Below, one piece after another: positions 9,908-55,814 of a DNA stretch of 64,000 bases. This DNA comes from Acidobacteriota bacterium (lineage in GTDB: Bacteria; Acidobacteriota; Blastocatellia; RBC074). The notes beneath the pieces are model-generated. The model searched no databases. It was not told where the DNA came from and worked only from the letters and a program-made list of their open reading frames with translations. The translations under genes and the position numbers were made by a program. Positions within the stretch are counted from its first letter, which is position 1. The number at the start of each line of letters is the position of its first letter. The stretch covers positions 62,001 to 126,000 of the forward strand of contig JACPYM010000002.1 in the NCBI GenBank assembly GCA_016196035.1, read 5' to 3'.

Positions 9908-9913
9908 ATCAGT

Positions 9914-11837: not shown

Positions 11838-11900
11838 CCTAGCGTTCAACGCGCCACCCAAAGCGGTCAGCTTTCAGCAAGAGAGTTGACCGCTTTCTTT

Positions 11901-11932
11901 GTGTCAGTAGCCCGCGCGTGGGCTACTGACAC
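11901..11932. repeat. Palindromic repeat, GTGTCAGTAGCCC family, copy 1
   Basis: GTGTCAGTAGCCC (11901-11913) and its exact complement (11920-11932) form a 13-bp stem with a 6-base loop of CG-rich sequence. The same arm recurs at 22137-22194. The hairpin follows the gene at 11268-11837 and could act as a transcript end, but only a short T-run (CTTTT) follows seven bases later. Confidence 0.6.
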
Positions 11933-11953
11933 GACTCTTTTATGGAGAACCCT

Positions 11954-12925
11954 ATGAAAGCCTGGCAAGTGACGGAATGGTGCGAACCCGAAGGCATGCA
12001 CTTCAACGACATCCCGCTGCCCGAACCCAACGCGGGCGAAGTGCGCATTCGCAATCACGCGGCGGCGCTCAACTTCTTCGACATCCTGCTGGTGCAGGGC
12101 AAATACCAGACGCGCCCGCCCTTCCCCTTCGCGCCCGGTTCCGAAGTCGCGGGCGTGATTGATGCCGTGGGCGCAGGCGTCACCGGCTTCAACATCGGCG
12201 ACCACGTGCTGGCGATGACCTCCAATGGCTTTGCCGAATACACGACCTCACTCGCGGCCAAGACCTTCCGCATCCCCGATGCAATGAACTTTGCTGAAGC
12301 CGCAGCGATGCCAATCATCTACCAAACTTCCTATCTGGCGCTGAAACAGCGCGGCCAATTGCGCGCGGGTGAATGGCTGCTGGTGCTGGCGGCAGCAGGC
12401 GGCGTAGGAATGTCGGCCATGCAATTGGGCGAGGCCTGGGGCGCACATGTGATTGCCGCCGTCGGCAGCGCGGACAAGTTTGCGTTTTGTTTGGAGAACG
12501 GCGCTGACTACGTCATCAATTACAACGAGAGTGATTGGCCTGAGCAGGTCAAGCGGCTGACAGGCGGGCACGGCGCGGATGTAATTTACGACCCGGTCGG
12601 CGCGGACTATTTCGATCAGGCGCTGAAATGCATCGCGCTCGAAGGCCGCCTGCTCGTCATCGGTTTTGCCGCCGGACGCATACCTTCGATTGCGGCGAAC
12701 CGGATTCTGTTTAAGAACATCTCGATTGTTGGTGCATATTGGGGCGGCTACCTCGAACATCATCCAGGCTTCTTGGCGGAAGCGCAGGCAGAATTATTCG
12801 CGTTGTATGAGGCGGGCCAGATCAAGCCGGTCGTGTCGCAGACCTTCTCGTTGGCGGAAGCACCAGCGGCAATGCGAGCTTTAGGGGAACAGAAGATCGT
12901 AGGCAAGACAGTGCTAACAATTTGA
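11954..12925 (+). CDS. NADPH:quinone oxidoreductase-like medium-chain dehydrogenase (zinc-free MDR)
   Basis: A 323-residue member of the MDR superfamily. The start at 11954 is preferred over an ATG 12 bases upstream because GGAG lies seven bases before it. The N-terminal GroES-like catalytic domain carries YQTRPPFPFAPGSEVAGVID, and the nucleotide-binding domain AAAGGVGMSAMQLGEAWGA (about residues 148-166) then VIYDPVGADYFDQALK and GRLLVIGFAAGRIPSI. The zinc-binding cysteines of alcohol dehydrogenases are missing, which places it with quinone oxidoreductases and enoyl reductases. It probably reduces an enone or quinone with NADPH in the cytoplasm. It ends the run of acyl-CoA metabolism genes and may belong to the same physiology. 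Confidence 0.88.
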   Translation: MKAWQVTEWCEPEGMHFNDIPLPEPNAGEVRIRNHAAALNFFDILLVQGKYQTRPPFPFAPGSEVAGVIDAVGAGVTGFNIGDHVLAMTSNGFAEYTTSLAAKTFRIPDAMNFAEAAAMPIIYQTSYLALKQRGQLRAGEWLLVLAAAGGVGMSAMQLGEAWGAHVIAAVGSADKFAFCLENGADYVINYNESDWPEQVKRLTGGHGADVIYDPVGADYFDQALKCIALEGRLLVIGFAAGRIPSIAANRILFKNISIVGAYWGGYLEHHPGFLAEAQAELFALYEAGQIKPVVSQTFSLAEAPAAMRALGEQKIVGKTVLTI

Positions 12926-29518: not shown

Positions 29519-30136
29519 TCACCAGCATTCAGTGTAAAAAAAGTCGAAGCCGGTATTGAGCGCTTCGCCCGTGAGGCGTTGCGTTTTCCAGTGCTCGCGC
29601 CACCAGTTTGTCGTTAGCACTTCGTAATCGCGCGGCGCATAGGTCAGGCCCAATTGGATGCCGGCGCGCGCAAAAACCGGCGTGGCCAGGCGGCGATTGG
29701 CCGCGCTTACAGTGGGTTCGACCACCATCAAGGCGCGCCGCCAGCCGTGCTGTTTTACGTATTCAGCGATGATCGGCATGACCTGGGCGCGGCATTCCAG
29801 GTTCGCCGGCAAATGCAGCGTCGAAACCTGAGCGGGCGGCACACCGAGTTCGAGCAAGTGCTGGCGGGCATAATCAGCCGGATAGACTTCCCAGGAGGAT
29901 TGCGAGCTGAGACAGACAATGTGTTGGGCTTTCCCCTGGCGCAGCAATTCGGCGGCGTAAGCATCGCCGTTCAACTGTGCATCCAGGGCGAAATGCAAAA
30001 TGACATCGGAGGGCGGCGCATCCGCCCGGCCAATCACCAGCCAGGGCAGCGCAAAGAAAATGAGCAGGCCCAAAACGCCGCTCAACGACAGCGCAAACAC
30101 GGCGCGGCGTCCCCATTTCAAGAGGGCGCGTTTCAT
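29519..30136 (-). CDS. YdcF/SanA-like (DUF218) membrane-anchored protein, divergent copy
   Basis: A 205-residue protein. One N-terminal membrane helix (VFALSLSGVLGLLIFFALPW) precedes a Rossmann-like DUF218 domain: PPSDVILHFALDAQLNGDAY, AAELLRQGKAQHIVCLSSQS, CRAQVMPIIAEYVKQHGWRR, ALMVVEPTVSAANRRLATPV. The typical IVVLGGG motif at the start of the domain is replaced by ILHFALD, so it is a degenerate family member. Its ATG overlaps the stop of the next YdcF gene (ATGA), so the two are translationally coupled and likely act together. Family members are linked to envelope and surface polysaccharide biology; no reaction is established. Confidence 0.75.
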   Translation of the reverse strand: MKRALLKWGRRAVFALSLSGVLGLLIFFALPWLVIGRADAPPSDVILHFALDAQLNGDAYAAELLRQGKAQHIVCLSSQSSWEVYPADYARQHLLELGVPPAQVSTLHLPANLECRAQVMPIIAEYVKQHGWRRALMVVEPTVSAANRRLATPVFARAGIQLGLTYAPRDYEVLTTNWWREHWKTQRLTGEALNTGFDFFYTECW

Positions 30137-30738
30137 TGCCAACCACCCACCAGAGTATTTCCCCACGAGATGAATTCGCGCACGGTGACAAAGACATCCT
30201 TGCGGCGCTGCCACCATTGCTGCGGTTGCCATTCCGGCGGCGCGGGCGCCACGGGCGAGGAGAGGAATTTCAATTCGCCCGCGTGACGCTCGATGGTAAA
30301 CAGCGCGCGCCGGGCGTGAAAGGGCGAAGTCACGACGATCATCGAATGCCACTGGTTGCGCCGCATCAGCGCGTGCAAGGTGCTGGCCTCCTGGCGCGTG
30401 TTGGTCGCTTCGGGCAGCACCACGATGTCGGCGGCGGGCACGCCCCAGCAGACGAGATACACCCGCTTCGCATCGCCGGTATTGCCGCCCCAGGCAAAGG
30501 GCAATCCGGCAATGATGATCTTGCGGCCCAGACCGCGATGATAAAGCTCCGCCGCGTGCTGTTCGCGCAAACACAGCGGATCGCCGCCCAACGCGACGAT
30601 GGCATCGGCAGGTTGCAAAGGGTCTTCGCGCATCAACTGCCGCGCGGCCGCATTGAGCAGCGCAGGCAAGCAGAAATACACGATCAAGAGCACCGTTACG
30701 ACAATCAGCATGCGTTGTGGCGGCGCGAGCGAATTCAT
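30133..30738 (-). CDS. YdcF/SanA-like (DUF218) membrane-anchored protein
   Basis: A 201-residue protein with an N-terminal membrane helix (MLIVVTVLLIVYFCLPALLN) and a canonical DUF218 domain: QPADAIVALGGDPLCLREQH, AAELYHRGLGRKIIIAGLPF, PEATNTRQEASTLHALMRRN, SMIVVTSPFHARRALFTIER. The ALGGD, TRQEA and TSPFHxRRA elements are the conserved core. It overlaps the following gene by four bases and lies at the downstream end of the polysaccharide cluster, one base after the methyltransferase stop region. A role in envelope glycan metabolism is inferred from context only. Confidence 0.85.
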   Translation of the reverse strand: MNSLAPPQRMLIVVTVLLIVYFCLPALLNAAARQLMREDPLQPADAIVALGGDPLCLREQHAAELYHRGLGRKIIIAGLPFAWGGNTGDAKRVYLVCWGVPAADIVVLPEATNTRQEASTLHALMRRNQWHSMIVVTSPFHARRALFTIERHAGELKFLSSPVAPAPPEWQPQQWWQRRKDVFVTVREFISWGNTLVGGWQ

Positions 30739-30739: not shown

Positions 30740-31801
30740 TCAACTTGTCTTTACCGTGTCGGCCAGCGGCTTGCGCCCGCTGGCGCACCAGCCGTAATTG
30801 GGGCGCACGACAATTTCCTCCAGCCCCGCGCGTTCCAGCCAGCCGCGCACTTCCGCCTGGGTGTAGCGATATTCAAGCGGCGCCGAGAAGCGGTCGAACT
30901 GATCGTTGACGCAAACGCCAAAGGGGTAATGGGCGTACTGCCTCATCGGCAACTTCTCTGCCAGGCCTTTCAATCCGGCCAACCGCAATAGGCGGTACGG
31001 CCAAACAAACCCGGCGAAGGCCGCCGCCGCCGCCGGATAGGAGAGCGCATGCAGCAACGGATGCGGCAGCCGCGTCGTCACCTGCCGCAACGCCTTGACC
31101 GCCGCCAACAGCAACCGCTTGACGGGTTGCCCTTCCGGTTGCCAGTAGAGGTAGATTTGAATTGCGCCGCCCGGTTTAACGTAGCGCAGCAAATAACGAA
31201 ACGCCTCTTCGGGGTCGGGCAGATGATGCAGTACGCCGATGGAATAAACGAAGTCGAAGCTGGCGGGCGCGAAGGGCAGTTGCTGCAAATCGGCTTGCAC
31301 GCATTGCACGGTCGCGCAATCGGCGGTGTTGCGCTGGGCGACTTCGACGGCCGGCCCCAAATCAACCGCCCATACTCGCGCGCCGAATTTCGCCGCGTAA
31401 AACGCATGACGGCCAATGCCGCAGCCTGCGTCCAGCACCTGTTTGCCGCGAAAGAAAGCCGGCGTGTGCGGCAGCATATAAGCCAGAAAGTTGCGCTCCC
31501 ACTCCGGTCGCATCGCGGCGAAGTGTGTCCACTCGTAACCGAAGCTGTGCGCCGTCCGCACACGCCGTTCGTCCACGGCGCCGTGGTTTTGCCGGCCCGC
31601 CAGCGCGGCCCGTAGCGGCGCGAGCAGCATTCGCGGGATACCGCTGATGAGCGGGAAAGACTCGCGGCAGGCAGGGCATTCCAGGCTTTCGGCCAGGCTT
31701 TCGGCGGCGCGGCGGGACGGCGACAAGACGCCGCCACACGCCGGACAGCGCAATGCTGCGTAGCGCGCGGGCAGCGTCTCGTTGTGGGCAATGGCATTCA
31801 T
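30740..31801 (-). CDS. Class I SAM-dependent methyltransferase with N-terminal zinc-ribbon
   Basis: A 353-residue protein. The N-terminus has a Trm112-like zinc ribbon (RCPACGGVLSPS and LECPACRESFPLISGIPRM). The Rossmann methyltransferase core begins with KQVLDAGCGIGRHAFYAAKF (motif I) and AVDLGPAVEVAQRNTADCAT, with DFVYSIGVLHHLPDPEEAFR (motif post-I/II) and YVKPGGAIQIYLYW. Such enzymes occur in polysaccharide loci, where they may methylate sugars or lipid carriers. The start at 31801 avoids overlap with the upstream ACP-LnmK gene. A short duplication of AESL codons is seen in the ribbon. Confidence 0.85.
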   Translation of the reverse strand: MNAIAHNETLPARYAALRCPACGGVLSPSRRAAESLAESLECPACRESFPLISGIPRMLLAPLRAALAGRQNHGAVDERRVRTAHSFGYEWTHFAAMRPEWERNFLAYMLPHTPAFFRGKQVLDAGCGIGRHAFYAAKFGARVWAVDLGPAVEVAQRNTADCATVQCVQADLQQLPFAPASFDFVYSIGVLHHLPDPEEAFRYLLRYVKPGGAIQIYLYWQPEGQPVKRLLLAAVKALRQVTTRLPHPLLHALSYPAAAAAFAGFVWPYRLLRLAGLKGLAEKLPMRQYAHYPFGVCVNDQFDRFSAPLEYRYTQAEVRGWLERAGLEEIVVRPNYGWCASGRKPLADTVKTS

Positions 31802-31832: not shown

Positions 31833-33149
31833 TCAAGTCTCCAGCCGGGCAAAAAACGGAGCATCTTCCAGCGCGCGGCCAGAGACGGTTTTCTCCACCG
31901 TCGAAACCATCATCAGGCGCGCATCCGATTGGCGAAACATCTTGTAGTTGATCCACAGGCGAATCGGCGCCAGTTCCGGCGCGGGATGACCCGCTGCGAA
32001 CGGATTTTCGACCCACGGCTCGGCTTCGATCAGCAGCAGGTCGCGGGCCGAGGCGTTGTTCAAATAGGCGCTGCGGCGGCGCACCAACGTGCGCCGGTCA
32101 AGCAATTCCTCGGTCAACGGCAACGCCGCTCCGGCCAGCAACTCGCGTTCGGCGAGGTCCAGAAAGAGCGGATAATTGGCGAAATACACCAGCCCCGCGC
32201 CGTTCAGATCACGATCCGGCGCCAGCTTGTAAGTCGTTTGCACCGGCCCCGCCGTCATCGGCACGTAACCGGCGGGCGGACGCGCAAAGCAGCCCTCTTT
32301 CTCGGCCTGCTTAACCAACAGATAAGCATCGGGCGCTTCAGCCAACGCGGGGATGGTCTCGAAGCCGGGATTGGCCGGGCGCGCTTTCTTCAGCCACTCC
32401 GCGCCGTTGAATTGCAGCACGAAGATATTCGACAACCGAATCGCCGGCACGTTGGCCGCGACCGCTGCGGCGACATCGGCAAACGGCGGCAGCGCCGGCT
32501 CAGCGTGCTCTGCGGGCAACAGATAAAACGTGCCGTCGAGCATCGAAGCGCCGAAGCGCTGCAGGCTGCTGGCCGCCGTGAAGCGGTCGTTCTCGCCAAA
32601 TGCCGCCAACGGGCGCGCGGCGGGAAAAGCCAACTCGACGTAGAAAAACGTCGGGTAAAGCCGGTGCCCTTCAGCGTCAGCAAGTTGTTTGCTGGGCACA
32701 CCGCACAAATGCGCAATGTGCCGCCAACGCAAATCGCCCAGCAACTGCAACAGCGGCCCTTCGGCCAAGTTGTTGCGCCCGGTCAGCGGCATGCCGATTT
32801 CCACATCGGCATACAGCGTGCCCGCCGCCGTGTAACGCCGCTCGCTGCGCGCGGCGTCTTTCACTACGGCCGGCTGCAATGCAGCGGCGGACGGCAGGCC
32901 GTTGTTTGTCCCGGCTTTGCGCAGCGCCACATAATCCACCAGTTCGCGGATGGAGCCGAACCCAAGCCAGACCGCATCGGAGAAATGCGTTTGCAGCACG
33001 CTCTCCAGCGTCTCGCGCAGCACCAGCAATTGCAGTGAATCTATGCGGTAGTGCGTGGCCCAGCGCCCCGCATCAATCTCGCCCGCCGTCGTCTGCGCCA
33101 GTCCGGCGATGACGCTTTTGACCTGTGTTTCAAGCTGTACTCTATCCAT
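31833..33149 (-). CDS. Acyl carrier protein fused to a LnmK-like acyltransferase/decarboxylase domain
   Basis: A 438-residue fusion. Residues 1-75 are an acyl carrier protein with the phosphopantetheine site at YRIDSLQLLVL (Ser38 in DSL). After a linker, from about residue 108, comes a double-hotdog domain resembling the LnmK/Pnap_2097 family: ADVEIGMPLTGRNNLAEGPL, LGDLRWRHIAHLCGVPSK, then LYPTFFYVELAFPA, TYKLAPDRDLNGAGLVYFAN and YPLFLDLAERELL. LnmK of leinamycin synthesis loads methylmalonyl and decarboxylates it to propionyl-ACP. I could not place the catalytic tyrosine with certainty. Its presence amid sugar genes suggests that an acyl unit is made on this ACP for transfer to the glycan; an acyltransferase gene lies directly upstream. 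The ATG at 33149 is used; a TTG precedes it. Confidence 0.75.
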   Translation of the reverse strand: MDRVQLETQVKSVIAGLAQTTAGEIDAGRWATHYRIDSLQLLVLRETLESVLQTHFSDAVWLGFGSIRELVDYVALRKAGTNNGLPSAAALQPAVVKDAARSERRYTAAGTLYADVEIGMPLTGRNNLAEGPLLQLLGDLRWRHIAHLCGVPSKQLADAEGHRLYPTFFYVELAFPAARPLAAFGENDRFTAASSLQRFGASMLDGTFYLLPAEHAEPALPPFADVAAAVAANVPAIRLSNIFVLQFNGAEWLKKARPANPGFETIPALAEAPDAYLLVKQAEKEGCFARPPAGYVPMTAGPVQTTYKLAPDRDLNGAGLVYFANYPLFLDLAERELLAGAALPLTEELLDRRTLVRRRSAYLNNASARDLLLIEAEPWVENPFAAGHPAPELAPIRLWINYKMFRQSDARLMMVSTVEKTVSGRALEDAPFFARLET

Positions 33150-33335
33150 CAAACCTCATTTCAACCAAACCTCATTTCAACCAAACCAGGACTTACGCAA
33201 AGATTTGCCACAGAGGCACGGAGACACAGAGCAAGACAGAAACTCTCACCAGCACTGTAGCCAAACTCTATGTCTCCGTGCCTCTGTGGCAACTTCGCTC
33301 GCGTTTTGCGTAAGTCCTGCAAACCTTATTTCAAC
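33150..33335. repeat. 16-bp tandem repeats split by a 131-bp inverted-repeat element
   Basis: CAAACCTCATTTCAAC is repeated at 33150-33165 and 33166-33181; a third copy starts at 33182, is broken after CAAACC (33187) and resumes at 33320 (CAAACCTTATTTCAAC). The break holds an element with 14-bp ends (AGGACTTACGCAAA at 33188-33201, complement at 33305-33318) and an inner pair TTTGCCACAGAGGCACGGAG / complement. CAAACC thus flanks the insert on both sides (with one extra G), resembling a target duplication. Confidence 0.7.
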
Positions 33336-34095
33336 CGCCCGCCGCCTGCTCCTGCGCGGGTTCCACGGGCAACGGCCAGGCTTCATCGGGCAAGTCCCGG
33401 CGCGTCTTGTCGAAGATCAGCACGTAATCTTCCGGCGTCAACCGCCGCAACGCGCGCGCCGGCACGCCCGCAATCAACGTATAGCTTTCGCTCAGCGGCT
33501 GGCTCAGCAACGAGCCGATGCTGACGACGCAACAAGCGGCCACGCGCGCGCCCGGCGCGACACGCAACTCGGAACCCAGATAACAATAGTCCCCGATCTC
33601 AACCGGTTTGGTCTGCCGGCGGTTGTGCGTCCAGATCGAAGAGTTGCGCCCGCCCAGCATCGAACAACGCCCGATGCGCACACGGTCGGTAAAATCAATC
33701 CGGTGTTCCGCCGTAATGACCGCGCCGTAGCCCAAATAAAACGACGCATCCGGTTCGTTCGTGCAATCGTTGTTGGGGATCGCGTTGATCACATTCAAGC
33801 GCAACACCTGCGCCCAATCGCCCAATTCAATTACGTCGCCACCACGAAACAGATTGAGCGGCCCAATCACCGCGTGTGCACCAACCCGCACCGCCCCGCA
33901 GCGCCAGAAGACCGTACCGTGCCCGATGCGCGCCTCGTCGCCAAGCGTCAGCCCGCGGCAATCCAAATAAGCAATCCCAATCCGCACGTTGCGCCCAATG
34001 CGATACCCAAAGCCCCAACGATAAATCGCGCGTTTCAACACCCCCGGCAAAATCGCCGCCAGCATCAACACCAATTGGCGCAACCGCAATCTCAT
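33331..34095 (-). CDS. Left-handed beta-helix (hexapeptide) acyltransferase
   Basis: A 254-residue acyltransferase. After a short hydrophobic/basic N-terminus (MRLRLRQLVLMLAAILPGVL) hexapeptide repeats form the helix: IGRNVRIGIAYLDCRGLTLG, DEARIGHGTVFWRCGAVRVG, AHAVIGPLNLFRGGDVIELG, and VEIGDYCYLGSELRVAPGAR, ending with the family signature YTLIAGVPARALRRL. The active-site histidine is probably in AEHRIDF or WTHNRR. Such LbH enzymes O- or N-acylate sugars with acetyl-CoA or an acyl-ACP. The neighbour downstream is the ACP-LnmK fusion, which makes an acyl-ACP donor conceivable. Confidence 0.82.
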   Translation of the reverse strand: MRLRLRQLVLMLAAILPGVLKRAIYRWGFGYRIGRNVRIGIAYLDCRGLTLGDEARIGHGTVFWRCGAVRVGAHAVIGPLNLFRGGDVIELGDWAQVLRLNVINAIPNNDCTNEPDASFYLGYGAVITAEHRIDFTDRVRIGRCSMLGGRNSSIWTHNRRQTKPVEIGDYCYLGSELRVAPGARVAACCVVSIGSLLSQPLSESYTLIAGVPARALRRLTPEDYVLIFDKTRRDLPDEAWPLPVEPAQEQAAGG

Positions 34096-34454: not shown

Positions 34455-35546
34455 TTAGCGCTTTTCTGCCGCCGCCTCCCGCAACACCTCCGCCAACCGT
34501 GGCGCGTGTACCTGCAACGAATATCGCTCCGTCACCGTCCTTCGCCCCGCCTCCGCCAACTGCCCGCGCAAGGCTTCATCCATCAACAACCGCTCCAAGG
34601 CCGCCACCCAGGCTTCCGTCGAATTGACCAGCAACCCATTCACGCCGTCGCACACCACTTCTGTCGTCATCCCCACCGGCGAACACACACACGCGGCGCC
34701 CGCCGCCATGTATTGAATCGCCTTGAACGCACATTTACCCCGCGCCCATTCATCATCGCGAATCGGATACACGCCGATGTCCAGACCGCGAAACTCCTGA
34801 ATTTCCGTCGCCATTTGCCAGGGCCGATGTTCAACTTCAACGTCAGGGATCGTCACCGGCGCGCCCGCGCCAATCACCCGAAACACAAATGCGCGCCGCC
34901 GCGCCAATTCCTGTAACGCCGGTTTGATGATGTCCAGATACGGCGCCGTTGAATGACTGCCGATCCAGCCAATCACCGGGCGCGCATCCACGCGCGGCGC
35001 GGCGGGCGTGGCGGCAAACTGCGCGACATCCACCACTGTCGGCAAAATCGAAACACGCGGATTATGTTGTAACGCAAACTCCGCCAGATATTGGTTGCCC
35101 GCTAACACGCGCGTGCTCATGGCCAAAATCCGCGCCGTCTTGGTTGAGAATTTCAACCACTGCGCCAGCCGCCCATAGGTCGGACTAACATACGTAACAA
35201 AGATCGCATCATCGAAATCAAACACCAGCGGCCGTTGCATAACATTTCGTAACAGCCATTCAATCACCGGCGGCCCGAATAACAACGCTTCACGCGAAAT
35301 GAACACCACGTCGTACTGCCCCGCCCGCAAGACATCGCGCACCCGCCCGAACGTCGCCCGCGCCAGTCCCCACGCTTTTCGCCCCGCGCCGCCCGGCGCA
35401 TATAACACACGGAATAACTCGCTCGACAAAAACGGCGCGACTTCACACGCGATTCCCTGCCCGTGTAAGTACGGCAGGAATTGCACGATACGATAGCGCG
35501 TGCTGGCCGCCTCCACCGGATTGGGCGTGAGAAACAAAACCCTCAT
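34455..35546 (-). CDS. GT4-family glycosyltransferase
   Basis: A 363-residue GT-B glycosyltransferase. The start at 35546 gives [20 protein letters not shown], the N-terminal domain opening of the family; an in-frame extension overlaps the upstream membrane protein. Landmarks are [60 protein letters not shown] and the donor-binding region [40 protein letters not shown]. It overlaps the upstream gene by four bases, showing translational coupling. It adds a sugar to the growing repeat unit on the cytoplasmic face; the sugar is unknown. Confidence 0.88.
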
Positions 35547-36871
35547 CCCTGTCGCAACTCCGGTTCCGGTTCGACCCAAACCGGGAGCGCTGCCACGGGT
35601 TGTTGCTCCGCCCAACGCCGTGCCCGCCGCTGTTGCAAACCCACCACGGCGAAGATCAATAACCAAGGCAGCAATTGCGCCCGCTGCCGGAAAATCAACC
35701 CGACGTTGCCAAACATCATGCTATAAAGCAGACCCAGCCCGGCCACAAAAAATAACATCGGTTGTACCTCGCTAAACCGTTGTCGCACCAGATACCACAA
35801 CCCCGGCAACAAGCCGGCAAAAAACAGGTACCACCAGACTAACAACTCCGGCAACGTGAGTAACGCGCGCACACTCGCCCCGCCCAATTGCCACGGGAAC
35901 GGGGCCAGCGCCAGATGCGCCGCGCCCACCGCCGTCCCCAGCACCAACCCGCCCGGCGTGCGTATGTCGAAGTTATTTTCCACCCCGGAACCCGCCCCCT
36001 TCGCCACATCGTGTCGAAAGTTTTGTACCATCTGTAAATCGAATTTCTCGAAATAAGCTTCGTTGCGCGCAAATAAACCCGAGGAAACCGCCAGCGCGCC
36101 CACCAACCCCACCACCGCCACGCCCGAAACAAAGGTTGACCGCGCCTGGCTCAAACGCGGCAACGTCAACGCCACCACCGCCGCCGCCGCCGCGATATAG
36201 GCCGCATAAAACCGGAACGGCAGTAACAGCACGATGGCGAAGCCGCATAACAGCACGTAACGCAATGAGAAGCCCGACAGTTTCAATTGCACGCAGCCAT
36301 ACAGTGCGACGGTTTCCAGCAAAATCACCACCGGCTCTTTCAACGTTTGCGCCGACCAGATAATCATCGAAGGGAAAAAGCAGGCCAGCCAACCGGCGCG
36401 CGTCGCCACCCAGGGCGAAAACAGCGTGCGTGCGATACGATAAACAAACACCACCGTCAACGCTCCAAAAAAACAATTCAACGCCGCCGCTGATAACCGC
36501 GCTGGCTCGCCGGTGAAATAAAACAGCGTCCCCACCAAATACGAGTAACCGCGATGCTGCCCTTCAAATGCGCCCAGTAACTCACCGGGCAAATCCACCA
36601 GACTCATGTGACGCTGTGCCCACCGATTAAAATACAACACGCCGCCTAACCAGCCACTCGAATCCTCGTCGCCCAACACTTGCACCAAGCCGAACTCATA
36701 CACTGTTACCGCCATCGCAAAGCGCGTCAGCAAGGCCACCAGAAACAGCTTCACCTGTTCGGCCAGGCTCTCGCGATGCCGCTGCGTCAACGTCAGCAGG
36801 TAGGCCCCGCCGCCCGCCAGTACCAACAGAATCAAAATGCCAAAAGGGAGATCATTGACTGCTCGATACAT
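35543..36871 (-). CDS. Polytopic membrane protein, GT-C/PMT-like
   Basis: A 442-residue protein with about ten membrane helices ([57 protein letters not shown] and others). The segment [20 protein letters not shown] followed by [18 protein letters not shown] is typical of glycosyltransferase family 39-like or polysaccharide-biosynthesis membrane proteins, and GDEDSSGW at the first loop is an acidic motif that may be catalytic. It may transfer a sugar from a lipid carrier on the periplasmic side. A role as a second polymerase is an alternative. It overlaps the next GT4 gene. Confidence 0.72.
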
Positions 36872-36874: not shown

Positions 36875-38113
36875 TTATTCGCCCGCCCCTTCAAACATTC
36901 GTTTATACAATCGGCGGTAACGCACGCCGCCCACCGCCGCCAGATCGAAATGCTTCAGCGCCGCCGCCCGGCAACGTGCCGCCAAATCAGGCTGCTGTTG
37001 TAACAACTCCGCCTCGCGCAACGCGGCTTGATACGCCGCCGTCGTGAATTCTTTCAAAATAACACCGACCCGCTCACTCGTAATCAGTTCATCCAGATCG
37101 CCAATGCCCGCGTTGCTAATCACGGGCAAGCCGCTCGCCAGGTATTCGGCAATTTTCGTCGGCGACGAAGCGAGTTTGGAATAACAAGGCTTGATGAGCG
37201 AGAGCGCCACGTCTGCGGCTTTCAGGTAGCGCGGAATCTCGGCGGGCGTGACCTGGCGAACGAGATAATCTTGCGGCGCGAGGCCCAAAGCCTGCAAGCG
37301 CGAAGCCATGACCTCCGCCCGGCTCTGCGTTAGGACAAGCGCAAAGGTCGCGGCATCCTGGGCGTGCGCGGCGGCCAGCATCTCCGCCAACTCATCAGTC
37401 AGATACCAGCCACCCAGGGCGCCGACATAAACCACTACGCGCCGCCCGCTCAATCCAAGCTCACGCCGCACATCCTCCCTGGCCCAACCGTCAACCGCGC
37501 CAAACCGCTCGCTGTCTACGCAACATGGAATCACCTCAATAGGACGCCCTCGCTCATCGGTGTCACCACGGCCAGAAAAAAAGACGCGCCGCGCTTGTTC
37601 AGTCAGTACGACGAAGCCCGCCGCCTCTTTCAACAACCGCCGCTCCACTGCTTTCGCCAGGCGGAAATGCAGGCCATCTTTGGGCCAAATACCCGCGTCA
37701 ACATACTCCTCCGGAACAAATCCGCGAATGTCCAGCAACAGCCGCCCGCCGCTTAAGCGTTTGGCGAGCGCGCCCATCGCCCCGGCAAAGATGCTGCGCG
37801 CGTGCAGCAAATCTATCTGCTCACGCCTGATTAGCCGCGCTGCCACCCAAGCGCCAGCGGCGATGTCATACATCGTCGCTGGCAGTGAGGGCCATTTGTG
37901 ATAGGGCAACGCCTGCCAGCCAATCCCCCAGGCCGCCAACTTCGCGCGCCACTCTTCCACCTCAGCGCTCGCCCAACTGCGCGGCCAGTCCGGCTCAAAA
38001 GTAAGCAGCCTGACGTCAATCCCCTGCTGGCTGAGTTGTTGCAAATAAGGGATCACCTGCGTTTGTACCAATGGCTCGCGCACGCCGAAGTAACAAAGAT
38101 AAAGCGTCCGCAT
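36875..38113 (-). CDS. GT4-family glycosyltransferase
   Basis: A 412-residue GT-B enzyme. MRTLYLCYFGVREPLVQTQV at the start and PYLQQLSQQGIDVRLLTFEP form the acceptor domain; LLDIRGFVPEEYVDAG, EVIPCCVDSERFGAVDGWAR (the PxxVD hinge) and VVYVGALGGWYLTDELAEML open the donor domain; VALSLIKPCYSKLASSPTKI and AEYLASGLPVISNAGIGDLD hold the EX7E-like donor region. Three bases separate it from the downstream gene and three from the upstream oxygenase, so it is part of one operon. Confidence 0.9.
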   Translation of the reverse strand: MRTLYLCYFGVREPLVQTQVIPYLQQLSQQGIDVRLLTFEPDWPRSWASAEVEEWRAKLAAWGIGWQALPYHKWPSLPATMYDIAAGAWVAARLIRREQIDLLHARSIFAGAMGALAKRLSGGRLLLDIRGFVPEEYVDAGIWPKDGLHFRLAKAVERRLLKEAAGFVVLTEQARRVFFSGRGDTDERGRPIEVIPCCVDSERFGAVDGWAREDVRRELGLSGRRVVVYVGALGGWYLTDELAEMLAAAHAQDAATFALVLTQSRAEVMASRLQALGLAPQDYLVRQVTPAEIPRYLKAADVALSLIKPCYSKLASSPTKIAEYLASGLPVISNAGIGDLDELITSERVGVILKEFTTAAYQAALREAELLQQQPDLAARCRAAALKHFDLAAVGGVRYRRLYKRMFEGAGE

Positions 38114-38116: not shown

Positions 38117-38968
38117 TTATTTGTTCTCCGGCGGCAGGCCTTTGATCCGGCGCAAGGAACGTTTGAGTAAGTTACTCGACAACCCTTCCACCCCGCTTGT
38201 CCGCACTCGCTCAAGGGCCGCTTGCGCGCCAGCCAGCGCGGTCTTTACATACCCTGACGCCCCGGTTGTTTGCTGGTACAAAGTGTTATGCTCCGGCGCG
38301 ACCGCCGCAGCCTCGCGTTCGGCGGTGTAATAATAGATCGCGAGCGATTTACGCGTGAGTTGCGGCGGCGTCTTGAGCGGCTGCGGATGCCCGTGATAGG
38401 AGATTTCATTCGTCTCAAAAATTACCCCGCGATTGAACACCGGCGCGATGTTCTCTAACTGACGCCGCGCCGCCATGTCCCACAACTCCAGACAACCTTG
38501 ATACTCAGCTTTCCAGTCCTTGTTCAAATAAACCAGCAGGTTCAAGCGCCGATGCAACTTGGTCTTCGGATGAAAATTGTAATCAACGTGAACATCCAAA
38601 AATCCGCCGCAACTGATTTGATGTAACCCGCCGCCAGTTAAATCCGGGTCGGCAAGCAACTGCGGAATGCCGGTAATTTCGCTCATCAACCGGCGAAACT
38701 CCGGACTGGCCGTGAGCGCAAAAAATTTCTCTATCGGTAAGAGAAAATCTTTTGTGCGCGAGGATTTATGCCGCTGGTGTAAGTAGGTGGTGTTATCCCA
38801 GCCCCCCGCTTCAGGCGGTGGATAGGCTTGCAAGATCGCCTCAGCGAAATCCCCGGTTAACACATCATCAATAACCAGATAATGAAAAGGCTCTTTGGAA
38901 AACCATTCCCGCCGTAACTCAGTAACTCGAGTACTTAATTTTTCCAGTGTCAGCTCAACTTCGTTCAT
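38117..38968 (-). CDS. 2-oxoglutarate/Fe(II)-dependent oxygenase, prolyl-4-hydroxylase-like
   Basis: A 283-residue double-stranded beta-helix oxygenase. The metal triad is visible as HVD (His127, Asp129 in GGFLDVHVDYN) and a distal histidine in SYHGHPQPL (His192 or His194); Arg206 and Ser208 in LTRKSLAIYYYT bind 2-oxoglutarate. RRLNLLVYLNKDWKAEYQGC and LELWD are typical of the P4H-like group found in polysaccharide loci. The start MNEVELTLEKL at 38968 is preferred over a start four codons upstream. A sugar or lipid-linked glycan may be hydroxylated; free amino-acid side chains are the alternative. Confidence 0.82.
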   Translation of the reverse strand: MNEVELTLEKLSTRVTELRREWFSKEPFHYLVIDDVLTGDFAEAILQAYPPPEAGGWDNTTYLHQRHKSSRTKDFLLPIEKFFALTASPEFRRLMSEITGIPQLLADPDLTGGGLHQISCGGFLDVHVDYNFHPKTKLHRRLNLLVYLNKDWKAEYQGCLELWDMAARRQLENIAPVFNRGVIFETNEISYHGHPQPLKTPPQLTRKSLAIYYYTAEREAAAVAPEHNTLYQQTTGASGYVKTALAGAQAALERVRTSGVEGLSSNLLKRSLRRIKGLPPENK

Positions 38969-38981
38969 ACATAACTCCAAC

Positions 38982-40028
38982 TCAACCCTCGCAGTTCTGT
39001 TTTGGCGGGCCAGCGAAAAGCCGCCGTTTCCGCTGCTCTAACCAGCCCTGTCCCCAGCCCACGAACATCGCCAAATCAAGCGCCAGCAAAATCAGCCCCA
39101 CGCTGATGAATTGCGCCGGGTTGAGTAACCACCCTAAACTGCGCCCTGCGCGCCGCACCCAAATACTTTTCGCCGTGCGTGCCAGCCAGCCCAACACCGG
39201 TAACATCAGCCACCACGCGCTGAGTAACATAGCCAAGCCAACGCAAGCCAATCCGATGGTATATTGCCGCGCCACGCCGTAATGCCAGTAACGTTGCCAG
39301 TCCGCCAGAACGTTGTGCCGCGAATACAAAACAAACTTGCGCAAAGTGCGCCGCAGCGTCGGCTGCAATTGCCACCACACCGTGGCGTCAGCCACCCAGC
39401 CTGTCCTGGCGCCCGTTTCAGCCGCCTGTTGCATAAACGCCAGGTCTTCTGCCGCGCGCCAATCCGGGAACCCGCCCACACGCTCCCACAACGAGCGGCG
39501 CAATAGCGACGAAGCGATGAACGGGCCACGTAACAGACGACCATCGCGCAGCGCTTTTGGTGGTACATAAGCCAAGGCCGCACAGCGTTCAAAAAAACTC
39601 GCCGTTACAGCTTCGAAGTTGCCGTAAACGATCTCCAGCGTCGGGTCGGCCTCAACCGCCGCACACAACCGCGCGAGCCATTCCGGTTCCAGCCGAATCC
39701 CCGCATCCGTTAAGGCAACCCACTCGTGCGTGGCGGCGGCGATGCCTAAATTACGGCCCTTGCCGGGAGTGGCGGCGGGCACGCGCACGATGCGCAACGG
39801 CACGGCAAAACCATGTTGCCGATGCCACCTCTCGATGATCGCGCAGGTTTCATCGGCCGAACCGCCGTCAACGAGAATTACTTCATCGGGGAGGCGGCGT
39901 TGGGCGGCGACGCTGGCCAGTAGCCGCTCAATCGAGTCCGCTTCATTTTTGACCGGCACAACGAGCGTGACCTTCACCGATTCGCTAACCCTCCTTGTCT
40001 GATTCGCGCGAGGTTCTCGCAACGACAA
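38982..40028 (-). CDS. GT2-family glycosyltransferase with C-terminal membrane helices
   Basis: A 348-residue GT-A enzyme. Core motifs are KVTLVVPVKNEADSIERLLA, RLPDEVILVDGGSADETCAI, GRNLGIAAATHEWVALTDAG (the DAG taking the place of DxD) and GGFPDWRAAEDLAFMQQAAE (catalytic base region ED). The C-terminal third has three hydrophobic helices (IGLACVGLAMLLSAWWLMLP, ISVGLILLALDLAMFVGW), anchoring it to the membrane. Its stop abuts the downstream oxygenase gene region and it starts directly next to the acyltransferase stop, within the same operon. The sugar donor is unknown. Confidence 0.88.
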   Translation of the reverse strand: MSLREPRANQTRRVSESVKVTLVVPVKNEADSIERLLASVAAQRRLPDEVILVDGGSADETCAIIERWHRQHGFAVPLRIVRVPAATPGKGRNLGIAAATHEWVALTDAGIRLEPEWLARLCAAVEADPTLEIVYGNFEAVTASFFERCAALAYVPPKALRDGRLLRGPFIASSLLRRSLWERVGGFPDWRAAEDLAFMQQAAETGARTGWVADATVWWQLQPTLRRTLRKFVLYSRHNVLADWQRYWHYGVARQYTIGLACVGLAMLLSAWWLMLPVLGWLARTAKSIWVRRAGRSLGWLLNPAQFISVGLILLALDLAMFVGWGQGWLEQRKRRLFAGPPKQNCEG

Positions 40029-40679
40029 TCAAGCGCTGCGCCGTTGCGCCGGGATTTCATCAAGCGCGTCCTCCAGATTGTTGGCCAGATTATTGGCGCT
40101 GCCTTCTCTCATTCTGAGCAAGCGCGCCGGATTGCCGGCGACGATGGCATAAGCAGGCACAGGTTTTGTGACGACCGCACCCGCGCCAACGATAGCGTCG
40201 TGGCCAACGCTGGCAAGAATAGTGGCGTTCGCGCCGATCCAAGCGCCATTCCCGATCACCAGCGCTTCTTTGGGCAGATTGCCTTGCTGCTTGACCGGCA
40301 CATCCAGCCGGTCAAACCGGTGTTGTTTGCCGCCCGCCAGCAAAACCGCCTGCGGCCCGATTAACACGTGGTTGCCGATGTGCGCATAATCCACATAACA
40401 ATTCGTGCTCAGCCAAACATCCGTGCCCAGCGTGGTGCGCGGGTCTTCCAGGATGACGCCAAAATGCAACACGGCATCGGCCCCGATGGCAGGCAACACC
40501 TGGCGGTAAACGGCGCGCCGCAACTTCCAACCAAACGAAAACGGCACGCGGGACAGGGCTTCGGAAACAAACGGAAAGTAAAGCACGCCACACCGCACGC
40601 CATAACACACAAGTAAGCCGATGGCACCGCCCAGCACAGCAATCCCGCCATTCCAAATTGCAGCAAGTAATTGACGCAT
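40029..40679 (-). CDS. Hexapeptide-repeat acyltransferase
   Basis: A 216-residue LbH acyltransferase. A hydrophobic N-terminus (GIAVLGGAIGLLVCYGVRC) is followed by hexapeptide coils: IGADAVLHFGVILEDPRTTL, GTDVWLSTNCYVDYAHIGNH, VLIGPQAVLLAGGKQHRFDR (probable catalytic His), VIGNGAWIGANATILASVGH and DAIVGAGAVVTKPVPAYAIV, ending in AGNPARLLRMR. This is the typical NodL/LacA/WbbJ-like ending. It likely O-acetylates or N-acetylates a residue of the repeat unit. It is the second hexapeptide transferase of the locus. Confidence 0.87.
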   Translation of the reverse strand: MRQLLAAIWNGGIAVLGGAIGLLVCYGVRCGVLYFPFVSEALSRVPFSFGWKLRRAVYRQVLPAIGADAVLHFGVILEDPRTTLGTDVWLSTNCYVDYAHIGNHVLIGPQAVLLAGGKQHRFDRLDVPVKQQGNLPKEALVIGNGAWIGANATILASVGHDAIVGAGAVVTKPVPAYAIVAGNPARLLRMREGSANNLANNLEDALDEIPAQRRSA

Positions 40680-43343: not shown

Positions 43344-45026
43344 TTACTTCAGGGAGGCGCTGGCAAAGTAGTGCCGGGTTTGCCTCCGTAACCATTCCCG
43401 ATCCTCCGGGTTCAGCAAAACACGGTACGCCAACCCGCCATAACTCAACAACGCGCCGGTCACGACGAAGCCCTGCCAGAGGGGCGGCCAGCCAAACCAT
43501 TTGCCAGCACACAGCGGCAGCAGCAACCACAGCACGCCGGCAAAATACGCTCGCCACGAACTGGCGAAGGGCGAGAACGGCAGCCCGCTGAGTTGCCGGC
43601 TGGCACGTATGAATAACACCGCATCCGTCAGTACGCGCAAGCCCCAGGCGAGCGCCGCGCCGCGTGCCCCGAACCACCAGGTCAGGGTGATCACACACAG
43701 GATATAAGGGAGCAACTCAAGCCAATAATAACGTGCCACCAATTCCGCTTTACCGGCAGCCAGCACCAGATTCAACGGCGCCACCGCTAAAATGTTAAAG
43801 ACCGCGCCGCCGAGCAAGAGATAAAACGGCCCGGTGCTCTCGCGTCCATATTCGGCGCCCGCCCAAAAGGTAAAAAACGGTTGCGCGAGCAACGCCATGA
43901 TGACCACCAGCGGCGGCGCCGTCACTAAAATGGCGCGGCTCGCTTGCTGGTAAAGCCGCTGCAAGTCAGCGCGCGCGGCGCTGGCCTGCAAGCGCGTAAG
44001 TGCTGGCAATAAGACCTGGCCCAAGGCCGTGGGAATCATCGTCAGCAAATTGGCCAGCGTATAAGCCACTGTGTAATGCGCGAGCGTCTTGACTGAAGCG
44101 ACGCGCGCCAGCACCAGCTTTTCGCCATTCGCCAGCACCAAGGCCGCCAATTGCGAAGCCACCAACGCCGCCCCAAAGCGGGCCAGCGACCTGAGCATGA
44201 CAAAATCAAACCTGGGCCTGACTAATTGCGGCAGCAGCCGTAGCGAAAAAAAGCCGTGCACCAGCGCCAATAAACCATTGCTGACCGCCACCACCGCAAC
44301 GGCTCCCACCAAACCGCCGCCGCACCACAGCACGATTGGCGTGAAAATGATCTGGGCGAGATTGGCGCCGGTCGTCAGCAGTGAGTTCAGCCGCATCCGC
44401 AACCGCACCAGTTGCGGCGTGTTCAACACACTGCTGAGCGCGCGCGCCATGAATCCTAACGCGGCAATGCGCAACGCCAGCGTGGCGGGCGGTTGCAACG
44501 CTGCGGGCAAGTGCAGCCCGCGTTCCAGCAACAGCTCCGCCGTCAAGACCAGCAAGACCGCCAAGACCAAGACTGGCGCCAGACCGATGAGCAACGCCGT
44601 CCAGATGACGGTGGCTTCCCCCTCGTCATCGCCGCGCGCGTGCGCCTCGGCCCCGTAACGTGTCGAAGCCATCCCCATGCCCAAATCACCAAAGGCCAGA
44701 TAGCCAATCAGCAGGTTGATTAACGTCAAAACCCCATACGCTTCGGCACCCAGCCAGCGAATCACCAACGGCGTCGCCACAAACGAGGCCACTAAGGTCA
44801 CACCTTGCCCGCCCAGATTCCATAAGCTGCCGCGCGCGACCTGCTGGGCCATTCCCATGGTTTGGGTATTGGGGAAGCCGCTCTTCGGCTCCGGCTTCCC
44901 AGGAAAATTGGATTCCGCTTGTGTCGGGGAGTCTGAAGAAATTGCCGCTGATGTTACCGCCTTAGCCTTTGGAGTAAGGTCAGGGGGTTGATTAATTTGG
45001 ACAGTCACATTCCCGCCAGCCGCCAC
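43344..45026 (-). CDS. Wzx-like polysaccharide flippase (MOP superfamily)
   Basis: A polytopic protein of up to 560 residues with twelve or more membrane helices. The MOP-type start of the membrane part is VARGSLWNLGGQGVTLVASF, with TPLVIRWLGAEAYGVLTLIN and LLIGYLAFGDLGMGMASTRY; later LAHYTVAYTLANLLTMIPTA and AEYGRESTGPFYLLLGGAVF. It moves lipid-linked repeat units across the inner membrane to the Wzy-like polymerase. The start is uncertain: the long frame begins with a GTG at 45026 and a polar, Pro/Ser-rich leader of about 55 residues; MGMAQQVARG at 44858 is the alternative that fits other flippases better. A MITE-like element follows the stop codon. Confidence 0.88.
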   Translation of the reverse strand: MAAGGNVTVQINQPPDLTPKAKAVTSAAISSDSPTQAESNFPGKPEPKSGFPNTQTMGMAQQVARGSLWNLGGQGVTLVASFVATPLVIRWLGAEAYGVLTLINLLIGYLAFGDLGMGMASTRYGAEAHARGDDEGEATVIWTALLIGLAPVLVLAVLLVLTAELLLERGLHLPAALQPPATLALRIAALGFMARALSSVLNTPQLVRLRMRLNSLLTTGANLAQIIFTPIVLWCGGGLVGAVAVVAVSNGLLALVHGFFSLRLLPQLVRPRFDFVMLRSLARFGAALVASQLAALVLANGEKLVLARVASVKTLAHYTVAYTLANLLTMIPTALGQVLLPALTRLQASAARADLQRLYQQASRAILVTAPPLVVIMALLAQPFFTFWAGAEYGRESTGPFYLLLGGAVFNILAVAPLNLVLAAGKAELVARYYWLELLPYILCVITLTWWFGARGAALAWGLRVLTDAVLFIRASRQLSGLPFSPFASSWRAYFAGVLWLLLPLCAGKWFGWPPLWQGFVVTGALLSYGGLAYRVLLNPEDREWLRRQTRHYFASASLK

Positions 45027-47123: not shown

Positions 47124-49604
47124 CTAATCGCCTACCCCAGCCTTGCCCAACCCAATGTCTTTGCTTTGGCTTCCGTAATTTGAATGATAACGATAATAGT
47201 AGTAATCGTAATATCCCTCGCGTTTCAAATCTACGTTATTGAGTACCACGCCAAAAATTTTCGCGCCGACACTGCGTAAATCCTGCTTGGCCCGGCGCAC
47301 GATCTCGCGCGTGGAACGGCCCGCTTGCACCACCAGAATAACGCCGTCCACGAGGGTGGACAGAATGGCAGGATCGGTCACATTCATCAATGGCGGCGAG
47401 TCAATCAGAATGTGGTCGTACTCTTTGGCCGCCGTGCGAATCAGTTCGCGCATGCGCTCTGACGCAATCAGTTCCGCCGGATTCGGCGGAATCGGCCCGC
47501 AAGGCAGCAGGGTCAAATGCGGAATCGGCAATTGTTGGATCACCGAATCCAACGGCACATTGCTCGACAAGTAAGTCGAAAGGCCACGTGTTTGATTGAG
47601 CTTGAATTGCCGGTGAATCGCGGGGCGGCGCAAATCGCCGTCAATGAGCAAAACCGAAACGCCCAGATTGGCCAACGAAATTGCCGTGTTGATGGCCGTG
47701 GTCGTCTTGCCTTCGGCAGGCTGGCTGCTGGTGATCAAAATTGTTTTGGGCGGATTGCCCGCCGAAGAGAGCAACACCGCCGTGCGCAACATACGATAGG
47801 CTTCAACCACGGAAGACAATCCATCCAAGGTGGCCAATGCCTCGCCTTCGAGGGGTTGCAAACCGCGCGGGGCCAGCGCGGCGATCCCGTCAGCCTCAGC
47901 CGCCGATTCATTGAGGACTCCGGTGACGGCCTCTTTGCGTTTGGAACTCAGCATCCGCATCGCGCTCTGACTAACCGCTGGAATCATCGCCAGGGTCGGC
48001 AATTGCGCGGCGCGCAACACGTCTTCGACATTCTTGACGGTGTTGTCGAGGTACTCTAACAACAAGGCCAGACCGATCCCGGCAAACAGGCTCAAAAACA
48101 TGCCAATCAAGATCGAACGAGCGCGGCGCGGGCCGACGGCGCCATTGGGAATGCGCGCGGGTTCGATGATGCGCAAATCGGGGCTTTGCTCCGCCAGTTG
48201 GAAATTGGCTTGATTGGTTTTGGAAAGGAAATCGTTGTAAAGCGCTTTGGCCGTGTCTACGCGCTGTTTGAGAATGTTGAACTGAATCGCGGCCTGATTT
48301 TGCTGCACGGCCTCGCTTTTGGCTTTGTTGAGCGAGGTCTTCAATCCCTGTTCGTCGCGCACGGCGCGTTCATAATCGGCGCGCAACTTGTCTTCCAGCT
48401 TGCGGCGCGTCTCGGACAACAACTTTTCCAGTGCGGCAATCTGTTGTGTAACTTCGGCCACCTTGGGATTCTCAGGGCCGAATTTGACATTCAATTGCGC
48501 GGCTTGCACCTGCAACTCGCCGAGCTTGGCTTGCAGGGTATTGGTCTTCGGATCGGAAAAGGCGTCGGGCAGGCGGGCGACGCGCCCTTGCTTGACCTCT
48601 TCGTAAAGCGATTGTTTGAGCATCCGGTCGGTTTCGGCCTTGAGCGACTCGTCGTGCAATTTGGTGAGCTTGTCGCTGGTCAGCGTCTCTTTGCCTTCGG
48701 TCGAAAAGATATTGTTGACGCGGCTGTAATCAGCCAACGCCTGTTCGGATTGTTGCACCTGCGTTTGCAACTTGCGCGTCGTTTCGTCCAACCAGCCAGC
48801 CGATTTATTAAAGCGCGAGGTCTTGGCCTCGAAGCTGCGATTCAATAACACCTGCGCCGCGCCGTTGGCGACAGCGGCGGCGATCAAGGGGTCGGTATGC
48901 GTGTACGTAATCAGCAAGGCGCGCGTCTCGGGAATTTGATCTACGTACAAGGAGCGGCTCAGCACTTCGACATACGGTTCCAGCCTGGCGCTTTCCTGCG
49001 GCGTCGGGGGCGCGAGTTGGTCTTCGTTCAGTTGGATGGGGTTGACCGGCGGCAAATAACTGGGCTGTTCGAGCGGGCGGCGCAGTTTGGCCAAAATTGT
49101 TTTTAAGGCTTCGGCAAAGGTCTTTTTCTGCTCTACGTCCATAAAATGCGGTTGCGACTCCAGCTTCAAACGCCGGACGACCTCCTCTTTCAGCGGGTAA
49201 GTCGTCAGCAACAGCATTTCGGTTTTGATCTTGTCGGTATCGTCGGCCTGCACGAGCACGTTATTCTCTTTGAGAAAGGTGGCTGTGTCTTTGGCGACGG
49301 CCACCTTGGCCGTCGCCTGGTAGGTGGATTTAACGCGGAAAGATTCCAGGGTGACAATCAGCGTGGCAATAAACAGCACCGTCAGGATCAGCCATTTGCG
49401 TTTGCGCACCTTACGCCAGATCTCTCGGAAGTTGAGGCTGTCCGCGCCCGCGCCTGTCTGCGGCAAACCGTTGGCGTCACCCATACCATTCGCCATCAAC
49501 CCCGTGAGCGCGCCCGGAAGATAGGCCGGGTTCAGGCGCATCAACTCCTGTGAAGTGGAGTTGCGGTCAGACACCTGCTCCGGGTTGCGATTCTCTTCCG
49601 ACAT
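47124..49604 (-). CDS. Wzc-like chain-length regulator with BY-kinase domain (copy 1)
   Basis: An 826-residue inner-membrane protein. The second of two adjacent ATGs is used because GGAGG lies five bases before it; this gives MSEENRNPEQ, like the paralog. A Wzz domain with membrane helix (KWLILTVLFIATLIVTL, residues about 72-88) leads to long periplasmic coiled coils (GNVR-type), a second helix (ILIGMFLSLFAGIGLALLLE) and the cytoplasmic tyrosine kinase: Walker A SSQPAEGKTTTAINTAIS (about 615-632), Walker A' LLIDGDLRRPAIH, Walker B ILIDSPPLMNVTDP. The C-terminus is a tyrosine cluster, YYDYYYYRYHSNYG, the usual autophosphorylation site. It regulates polymerisation and export with the Wza-like protein. 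Confidence 0.93.
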   Translation of the reverse strand: MSEENRNPEQVSDRNSTSQELMRLNPAYLPGALTGLMANGMGDANGLPQTGAGADSLNFREIWRKVRKRKWLILTVLFIATLIVTLESFRVKSTYQATAKVAVAKDTATFLKENNVLVQADDTDKIKTEMLLLTTYPLKEEVVRRLKLESQPHFMDVEQKKTFAEALKTILAKLRRPLEQPSYLPPVNPIQLNEDQLAPPTPQESARLEPYVEVLSRSLYVDQIPETRALLITYTHTDPLIAAAVANGAAQVLLNRSFEAKTSRFNKSAGWLDETTRKLQTQVQQSEQALADYSRVNNIFSTEGKETLTSDKLTKLHDESLKAETDRMLKQSLYEEVKQGRVARLPDAFSDPKTNTLQAKLGELQVQAAQLNVKFGPENPKVAEVTQQIAALEKLLSETRRKLEDKLRADYERAVRDEQGLKTSLNKAKSEAVQQNQAAIQFNILKQRVDTAKALYNDFLSKTNQANFQLAEQSPDLRIIEPARIPNGAVGPRRARSILIGMFLSLFAGIGLALLLEYLDNTVKNVEDVLRAAQLPTLAMIPAVSQSAMRMLSSKRKEAVTGVLNESAAEADGIAALAPRGLQPLEGEALATLDGLSSVVEAYRMLRTAVLLSSAGNPPKTILITSSQPAEGKTTTAINTAISLANLGVSVLLIDGDLRRPAIHRQFKLNQTRGLSTYLSSNVPLDSVIQQLPIPHLTLLPCGPIPPNPAELIASERMRELIRTAAKEYDHILIDSPPLMNVTDPAILSTLVDGVILVVQAGRSTREIVRRAKQDLRSVGAKIFGVVLNNVDLKREGYYDYYYYRYHSNYGSQSKDIGLGKAGVGD

Positions 49605-49860
49605 CATTCCCTCCCAATTGCCTTGCAAAATTCGGATGTGCAGTACACTGCTGGCAAAGACCGGGCACCATCCAAGTCTCTTCAGTCCGCCGCCTCTGTT
49701 AGGGACAGCTCAATCTTCCCTGCACCAAGTACGTATTATGTGTGTATGACGAAACGGCTCATCAGTCAGACCGCCTGTCAGCAAACAATCTCTCAAAACA
49801 ATCTGTATTGCTCAGGCTCTTAACTTGATCGTTTGAGCCAGGCAGCGCTGCGTGGCATGG
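49605..49860. other. Gap upstream of copy-1 Wzc-like gene, nothing recognised
   Basis: About 250 bp with no convincing open frame. On the minus strand CATAAT (complement at about 49734-49739) might be a -10 box, but no matching -35 was found. The sequence is less GC-rich than the neighbours. It probably holds the promoter and leader of the Wzc-like gene. Confidence 0.3.
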
Positions 49861-54310: not shown

Positions 54311-54388
54311 AACCACGACCTCCTTGTGAGGTGGAGGGATTCAGCATTTATCCGAGAACGGACGCGCGGGGCCAGCGACGCTGCTGAA

Positions 54389-55747: not shown

Positions 55748-55814
55748 GGGTTGATTGCAGCCCGCGCCCAATCACAGCGGCGACAGGTCAAAGAGAAATT
55801 CCTGAACTACAAAA

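Follow-up and report, generated by a model that had tools for sequence, protein, structure and literature searches.

A carrier protein fused to an LnmK-type domain in an acidobacterial polysaccharide locus, a candidate self-loading donor for glycan propionylation

LnmK-type enzymes have so far been studied within polyketide assembly. LnmK, from the leinamycin pathway, and LrgK act together with an acyl carrier protein (ACP) and an HMG synthase in beta-alkylation (PMC9396626), and their ACPs, LnmL and LrgL, are separate proteins. They are double hot-dog proteins with a catalytic tyrosine and a loop asparagine that turn methylmalonyl-CoA into propionyl-ACP. Decarboxylation in both MadB and LnmK uses an asparagine on a similar loop (PMC8666670). 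To judge from the title of a 2020 paper on LnmK that is cited there, the enzyme is specific for (2R)-methylmalonyl-CoA.

Carriers also supply acyl groups to glycans. In the Dlt system (DltA-DltC-DltB-DltD), which D-alanylates teichoic acid, the adenylating ligase DltA loads a carrier that feeds an O-acyltransferase on a surface polymer, and transfer of the acyl group from the carrier DltC to the MBOAT protein DltB is established (PMC11035591). In a second system, MadA and MadB decarboxylate cellular malonyl-ACP, and the resulting acetyl-ACP is a preferred donor of GlmU (PMC8666670). MadA and MadB are single hot-dog proteins (PF09500), with neither a dedicated fused ACP nor acyltransfer from CoA to ACP. 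GlmU has a hexapeptide (LbH) domain. LpxA and LpxD, too, are LbH acyltransferases that use acyl-ACP donors and sugar-nucleotide acceptors; they differ from the route proposed below in that their long 3-hydroxyacyl chains come out of fatty acid synthesis.

The DNA analysed here, a stretch of 64,000 nucleotides that we call the window, encodes a protein in which an ACP and an LnmK-type domain are joined:

31833–33149, minus strand: ACP-LnmK fusion protein, 438 aa (open reading frame, TIGR04098, PDB LnmK matches, model and Foldseek)
32910–33149, minus strand: acyl carrier domain, residues 1–80, Ser38 in a DSL motif (PF00550, family profile, model helices)
31836–32834, minus strand: LnmK-type double hot-dog acyltransferase/decarboxylase domain, about residues 106–438 (TIGR04098, Foldseek, alignment)

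In our open reading frame analysis the ATG lies at 33149 and the stop codon at 31833–31835. A GAGG stands 5 bases upstream of the ATG, and GC3 and codon-position GC resemble those of the neighbouring genes. Residues 82–102 form a disordered linker between the two domains. PF00550 scores the window ACP at 18.3 bits, just under the gathering threshold of 20.8, and the ACP domains of relatives at 32.6–35.3 bits; the family profile matches solved ACPs at E 2e-11. Ser38 is kept wherever a relative has the domain, and the modelled helices are those expected of an ACP (H3–18, H31–34, H38–52, H58–63 and H67–80).

The remainder of the protein scores 128.2 bits with TIGR04098 (NCBIfam; curated cut-off 100). 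With TIGR04099, the model of the Pnap_2097 family, the protein reaches 60.8 bits, below the cut-off of 125, and with PF09500, the family of the Mad malonyl-ACP decarboxylases, it gives no match at E 0.1. The PDB entries of LnmK are matched at E values of about 4e-7 with the single sequence and 1.6e-23 with the family profile. An AlphaFold2 model of the fusion protein, built on an 11-sequence alignment, has a pLDDT of 85.6 and a pTM of 0.84, and a Foldseek search of the PDB with this model returned all seven LnmK entries as its top seven matches (E 1.6e-23 to 7.7e-22; TM 0.85 by target length), at about 20% identity in the structural alignment. Structural work on LnmK is said to have identified Tyr62 as the residue of acyl transfer. 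Its equivalent is Tyr165, invariant in all 17 sequences including LnmK, as are Asn316, Tyr322, Asp331 and Asn365. Asn316, within DLNGAGLVYFANY, is a candidate for the asparagine of the decarboxylation loop. The family model, the fold and the residues all place the domain in the LnmK family. An earlier note on this DNA had read the gene as an ACP, with Ser38 as its own attachment site, joined to an LnmK-like domain, and had suggested looking for the double hot-dog fold and the catalytic tyrosine; the reading holds, and both are there.

The fusion gene is surrounded by a complete Wzx/Wzy-type polysaccharide locus:

30133–30738, minus strand: DUF218/ElyC-like envelope protein (PF02698, 73 bits)
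30740–31801, minus strand: SAM methyltransferase with a Trm112-like N-terminus, the next gene downstream (31 bp), probably starting at an internal ATG at 31801 (family models)
33331–34095, minus strand: hexapeptide (LbH) acyltransferase, likely acyl acceptor/transfer partner (WcaF-family model, E 1e-12)
34455–35666, minus strand: GT4 glycosyltransferase (family model; syntenic in genome G339)
35543–36871, minus strand: PMT_2-like multi-membrane glycosyltransferase/polymerase (family model; 57% identical syntenic gene in G339)
36875–38113, minus strand: GT4 glycosyltransferase (family models; synteny in G339)
38117–38980, minus strand: 2OG-Fe(II) oxygenase (PF13640, 62 bits)
38982–40028, minus strand: GT2 glycosyltransferase (family model; synteny in G339)
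40029–40679, minus strand: second hexapeptide acyltransferase (PF00132, 48 bits)
43344–45026, minus strand: Wzx-type polysaccharide flippase (PF01943)
47124–49628, minus strand: Wzc-like chain length/tyrosine kinase (family model)
50651–53098, minus strand: second Wzc-like chain length/tyrosine kinase (family model)
53171–54316, minus strand: Wza/SLBB polysaccharide export protein (family model)
54389–55771, minus strand: O-antigen ligase/Wzy-type polymerase (PF04932, 70 bits)

Glycosyltransferases, SAM methyltransferases (two in the locus) and hexapeptide transferases are thus present as the earlier note had listed them, joined by Wzx, Wzc-like, Wza/SLBB and Wzy-type proteins. The LbH gene next to the fusion gene scores 25.7 bits with PF00132, just below the threshold of 27, and matches structures of galactoside O-acetyltransferases at E 4e-5. 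We set aside a model of the window hexapeptide transferase that was built from two sequences (pLDDT 48.6). No MBOAT gene was found among the window genes scanned, and no methylmalonyl-CoA mutase near ACP-LnmK among the scanned genes of the polysaccharide locus.

The locus and its borders have some further features. The LbH and ACP-LnmK genes are parted by a 133-bp repeat element (33187–33319), a MITE-like palindrome with perfect outer arms of 15 nt, CAGGACTTACGCAAA, and inner arms of 27 nt. The outer arm has 28 exact copies in the genome, compared with 0 for a reversed control, and several of these copies are paired at a spacing matching that at 33187–33319. The oxygenase at 38117–38980 sits within the run of glycosyltransferases and bears a distant likeness to the peptide-modifying YhhC family. 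Two Wzc-like genes occur in the one locus, with a gene for a YdjM-like membrane protein in between. The locus is adjoined by a gene for a hybrid histidine kinase of 1744 aa (58405–63639) with at least seven PAS and two GAF domains.

Proteins of the TIGR04098 family are rare and patchily distributed. The fusion protein is the only one in its own genome, and the family occurs in 1 of 11 genomes of the order and in 12 of 396 genomes of a sample of the phylum, with 4 of these 12 above the cut-off. Plasmids and phages searched with the window protein gave no match; a more distant acidobacterial protein, from locus L068, matched 47 plasmid records. Further acidobacterial and verrucomicrobial relatives came from a scan of genome contigs. 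In Verrucomicrobia the family model exceeds its cut-off only in two genomes, G516 and G656. A search of the same group with the whole fusion as query matched 96 genomes, and all matches outside these two were discarded as short and low-scoring, mostly covering the ACP part.

The relatives tell us more about the likely function than the window does by itself; the survey of neighbourhoods that the earlier note had suggested turned up an LbH fusion, MBOAT and SGNH partners, and operonic methylmalonyl-CoA mutase with MeaB. The genome G339 belongs to a different family within the class. It too has an LbH gene paired with ACP-LnmK, the two proteins being 70% and 66% identical to those of the window, and the conserved run GT4-PMT_2-GT4-GT2 adjoins the pair. 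The fusion gene is therefore more than a product of chance: its orthologue in another family is 66% identical end to end and has the same LbH gene alongside. On the same contig as this pair, and likewise within the polysaccharide locus of G339, an MBOAT gene lies beside an open reading frame of unknown family (8356–10762 in locus L015). At locus L021 a single open reading frame of 675 aa encodes an LbH transferase, an ACP and an LnmK domain in that order, and the closest relative of its transferase domain in the window is the second hexapeptide acyltransferase, at 40029–40679 (32% over 171 aa, E 4e-26). At L068 the ACP-LnmK gene follows those for a DegT sugar aminotransferase and a GNAT protein in a sugar-nucleotide cluster.

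The verrucomicrobial relatives, whose ACP-LnmK proteins are 39–41% identical to that of the window, show a different arrangement. Loci L024 and L067 share the gene order MBOAT, SGNH-type protein, ACP-LnmK, methylmalonyl-CoA mutase and MeaB. The mutase is encoded by two genes or by a single fused one, and the genes of the series overlap or touch; at L022 the contig breaks off, leaving SGNH, ACP-LnmK and mutase. The mutase of L067 is assigned at equivalog level (1116 bits, cut-off 876), and the MBOAT protein of the verrucomicrobial relatives is DltB-like (178.8 bits with TIGR04091, below the cut-off of 375). In G516 and G656 the operonic mutase genes are the only ones found in the genome, and hence the mutase probably serves the ACP-LnmK operon. 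The genome of the window holds two mutase-family genes.

We consider it probable that the fusion protein of this soil-type bacterium is a self-loading carrier, which makes propionyl-ACP from methylmalonyl-CoA and passes the propionyl group through a glycan acyltransferase to a surface sugar. Ser38 would first be phosphopantetheinylated. Methylmalonyl-CoA would be drawn from succinyl-CoA by a methylmalonyl-CoA mutase whose gene is part of the operon or lies at another place in the genome. The LnmK domain would accept the (2R)-methylmalonyl group from CoA, probably via Tyr165, and hand it to the attached ACP; decarboxylation with the help of the Asn316 loop would then yield propionyl-ACP. Finally, a glycan acyltransferase would move the propionyl group onto a sugar, either in the exported polysaccharide or in a precursor of it. 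This enzyme may be a hexapeptide (LbH) protein in the window locus, either of the two encoded there, an MBOAT protein with its SGNH partner in the verrucomicrobia and a GNAT protein at L068.

The pointer to the substrate is the position of the mutase genes, directly after ACP-LnmK and together with MeaB in L024 and L067, and also present in L022. Methylmalonyl-CoA mutase makes the (2R) isomer of methylmalonyl-CoA. For the window itself, the partnership between LbH, ACP and LnmK rests on conservation elsewhere, since no mutase lies nearby and the 133-bp repeat intervenes. The earlier note had envisaged a self-contained unit that makes a short acyl thioester for a surface glycan. The fusions and operons of the relatives support such a unit, but it still needs an acyltransferase partner, and we infer both its reaction and the nature of the acyl group.

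One could also argue that the same machine works on malonyl-CoA and supplies acetyl-ACP for O- or N-acetylation of the glycan, as MadA does for GlmU. Where bacteria acylate their glycans, the group is mostly acetyl; no mutase gene was found close to ACP-LnmK in the window; and hot-dog decarboxylases of malonyl-ACP exist in MadA and MadB, with acetyl-ACP preferred by GlmU (PMC8666670). We regard acetylation as unlikely nonetheless. Close verrucomicrobial relatives keep their sole mutase copy in the ACP-LnmK operon, and the reference title in PMC8666670 gives (2R)-methylmalonyl-CoA as the specific substrate of LnmK. Furthermore, LbH enzymes can take acetyl-CoA directly, so that a dedicated acetyl loader would presumably be superfluous.

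Alternatively, propionyl-ACP could be a starter or a beta-branch donor for a polyketide or fatty-acid synthase encoded elsewhere, its gene lying in a polysaccharide locus only incidentally. This would be the role known for LnmK and LrgK with their ACPs and HMG synthase (PMC9396626); large PKS genes do occur elsewhere in the genomes of some relatives, and a distant homologue of the Pnap_2097 type in Azospirillum (L078) lies in an ordinary polyketide cluster, so membership of the family alone does not dictate glycan use. However, as the earlier note had claimed for the surroundings of the gene, no ketosynthase was found on the 300-kb contig that carries ACP-LnmK: the ketosynthase matches of this genome, one full (on contig C86) and three partial, are all on other contigs. 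A search of eight genomes of relatives likewise found none on the LnmK contig in the five whose contigs matched. Neither HMG-CoA synthase nor enoyl-CoA hydratase was found among the scanned genes of the polysaccharide locus, and each of the 7 ACP-LnmK loci readable on that side has an acyltransferase, or its SGNH partner, as a neighbour or as part of the fusion. By context, ACP-LnmK is outside the polyketide beta-branching cassette, and we give a polyketide role very little credence. Least probable of all is a thioesterase-like or transferase-only domain that delivers methylmalonyl or another acyl group without decarboxylation, because acyl-ACP thioesterases, though the next-best structural matches (E about 1e-11), fall twelve orders of magnitude behind LnmK, and the acyltransfer tyrosine and the loop asparagine are kept in 17 of 17 sequences.

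If glycan propionylation is indeed the function, how does it compare with what is known? From LnmK and LrgK the window protein differs in that it carries its ACP in the same chain, has neither an HMG synthase nor a PKS encoded nearby and is expected to pass its product to a glycan acyltransferase. By analogy, the route seems to work much like Dlt and Mad-GlmU, and it is a member of neither. As in Dlt, the carrier would feed an acyltransferase on a surface polymer, and the likeness is greatest in the verrucomicrobial relatives, with their DltB-like MBOAT protein and SGNH-like partner. In contrast to Dlt, the loader is an LnmK domain fused to the carrier instead of a ligase, the acyl source would be methylmalonyl-CoA, and the transferase of the window is a cytoplasmic LbH protein (MBOAT proteins being present in L024 and L067). 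With MadA/MadB-GlmU the route would share its logic, in which a hot-dog decarboxylase provides a short acyl-ACP to an LbH transferase that works on glycan precursors, but the acyl group would be another. Given this precedent (PMC8666670), we see in it a variation on an existing principle more than the new use of the fold that the earlier note had suggested.

A literature search turned up no publication linking LnmK-type enzymes with the acylation of polysaccharides, but it covered subscription journals thinly and is weak evidence for that reason; nothing relevant came up on Pnap_2097 or on carrier-dependent glycan propionylation. With some caution, we lean towards the view that a previously undescribed route spans Acidobacteriota and Verrucomicrobiota, in which a dedicated mutase and a self-loading ACP-LnmK protein would serve unrelated acyltransferases (LbH, MBOAT-SGNH or GNAT) acting on exported polysaccharides. 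The LnmK fold would then serve to charge carriers with short acyl groups destined for sugars on the cell surface, and in some phyla it would have a B12-dependent mutase of its own to go with it. After the DltA ligase and the Mad decarboxylase, this would make three ways in which a carrier is charged for glycan acylation. Polysaccharides of soil and freshwater bacteria would be expected to carry propionyl groups, and ACP-LnmK beside an acyltransferase would be a simple genetic marker of such glycans. Many unassigned LnmK and Pnap_2097 proteins outside polyketide clusters would also gain a function.

The Pnap_2097 family (TIGR04099) has a related LnmK-type domain, and the genes of some of its members overlap those of methylmalonyl-CoA mutase. 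The window protein differs from it in its score below the TIGR04099 cut-off, its ACP and its Wzx/Wzy locus. Acidobacteriota and Verrucomicrobiota proteins of the window type cluster together in our tree, apart from the Pnap_2097 type, with modest support and with LnmK as a long branch. Fusions to a carrier or to an LbH protein occur in both groups, which suggests repeated joining. On the polysaccharide plasmid pRLO149_63 of Roseobacter litoralis, a hexapeptide transferase is fused straight to an LnmK domain, with no ACP (11395–12852 in locus L077), and hence some proteins of this kind can do without the carrier; on visual inspection, this transferase seems to lack the usual catalytic histidine. 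In two Burkholderiales Nit1 clusters (MSMEG_0565-0572; 7971–10936 in L079 and 7971–10942 in L080) there is a 4-bp overlap between a Pnap_2097 gene and a gene for methylmalonyl-CoA mutase. We set these relatives aside as a functional model, since they belong to the other clade and have no fused ACP. Their gene arrangement suggests that the Nit1 clusters of Burkholderiales may also use a propionyl thioester, and both clusters hold a GNAT and a glycosyltransferase gene as well.
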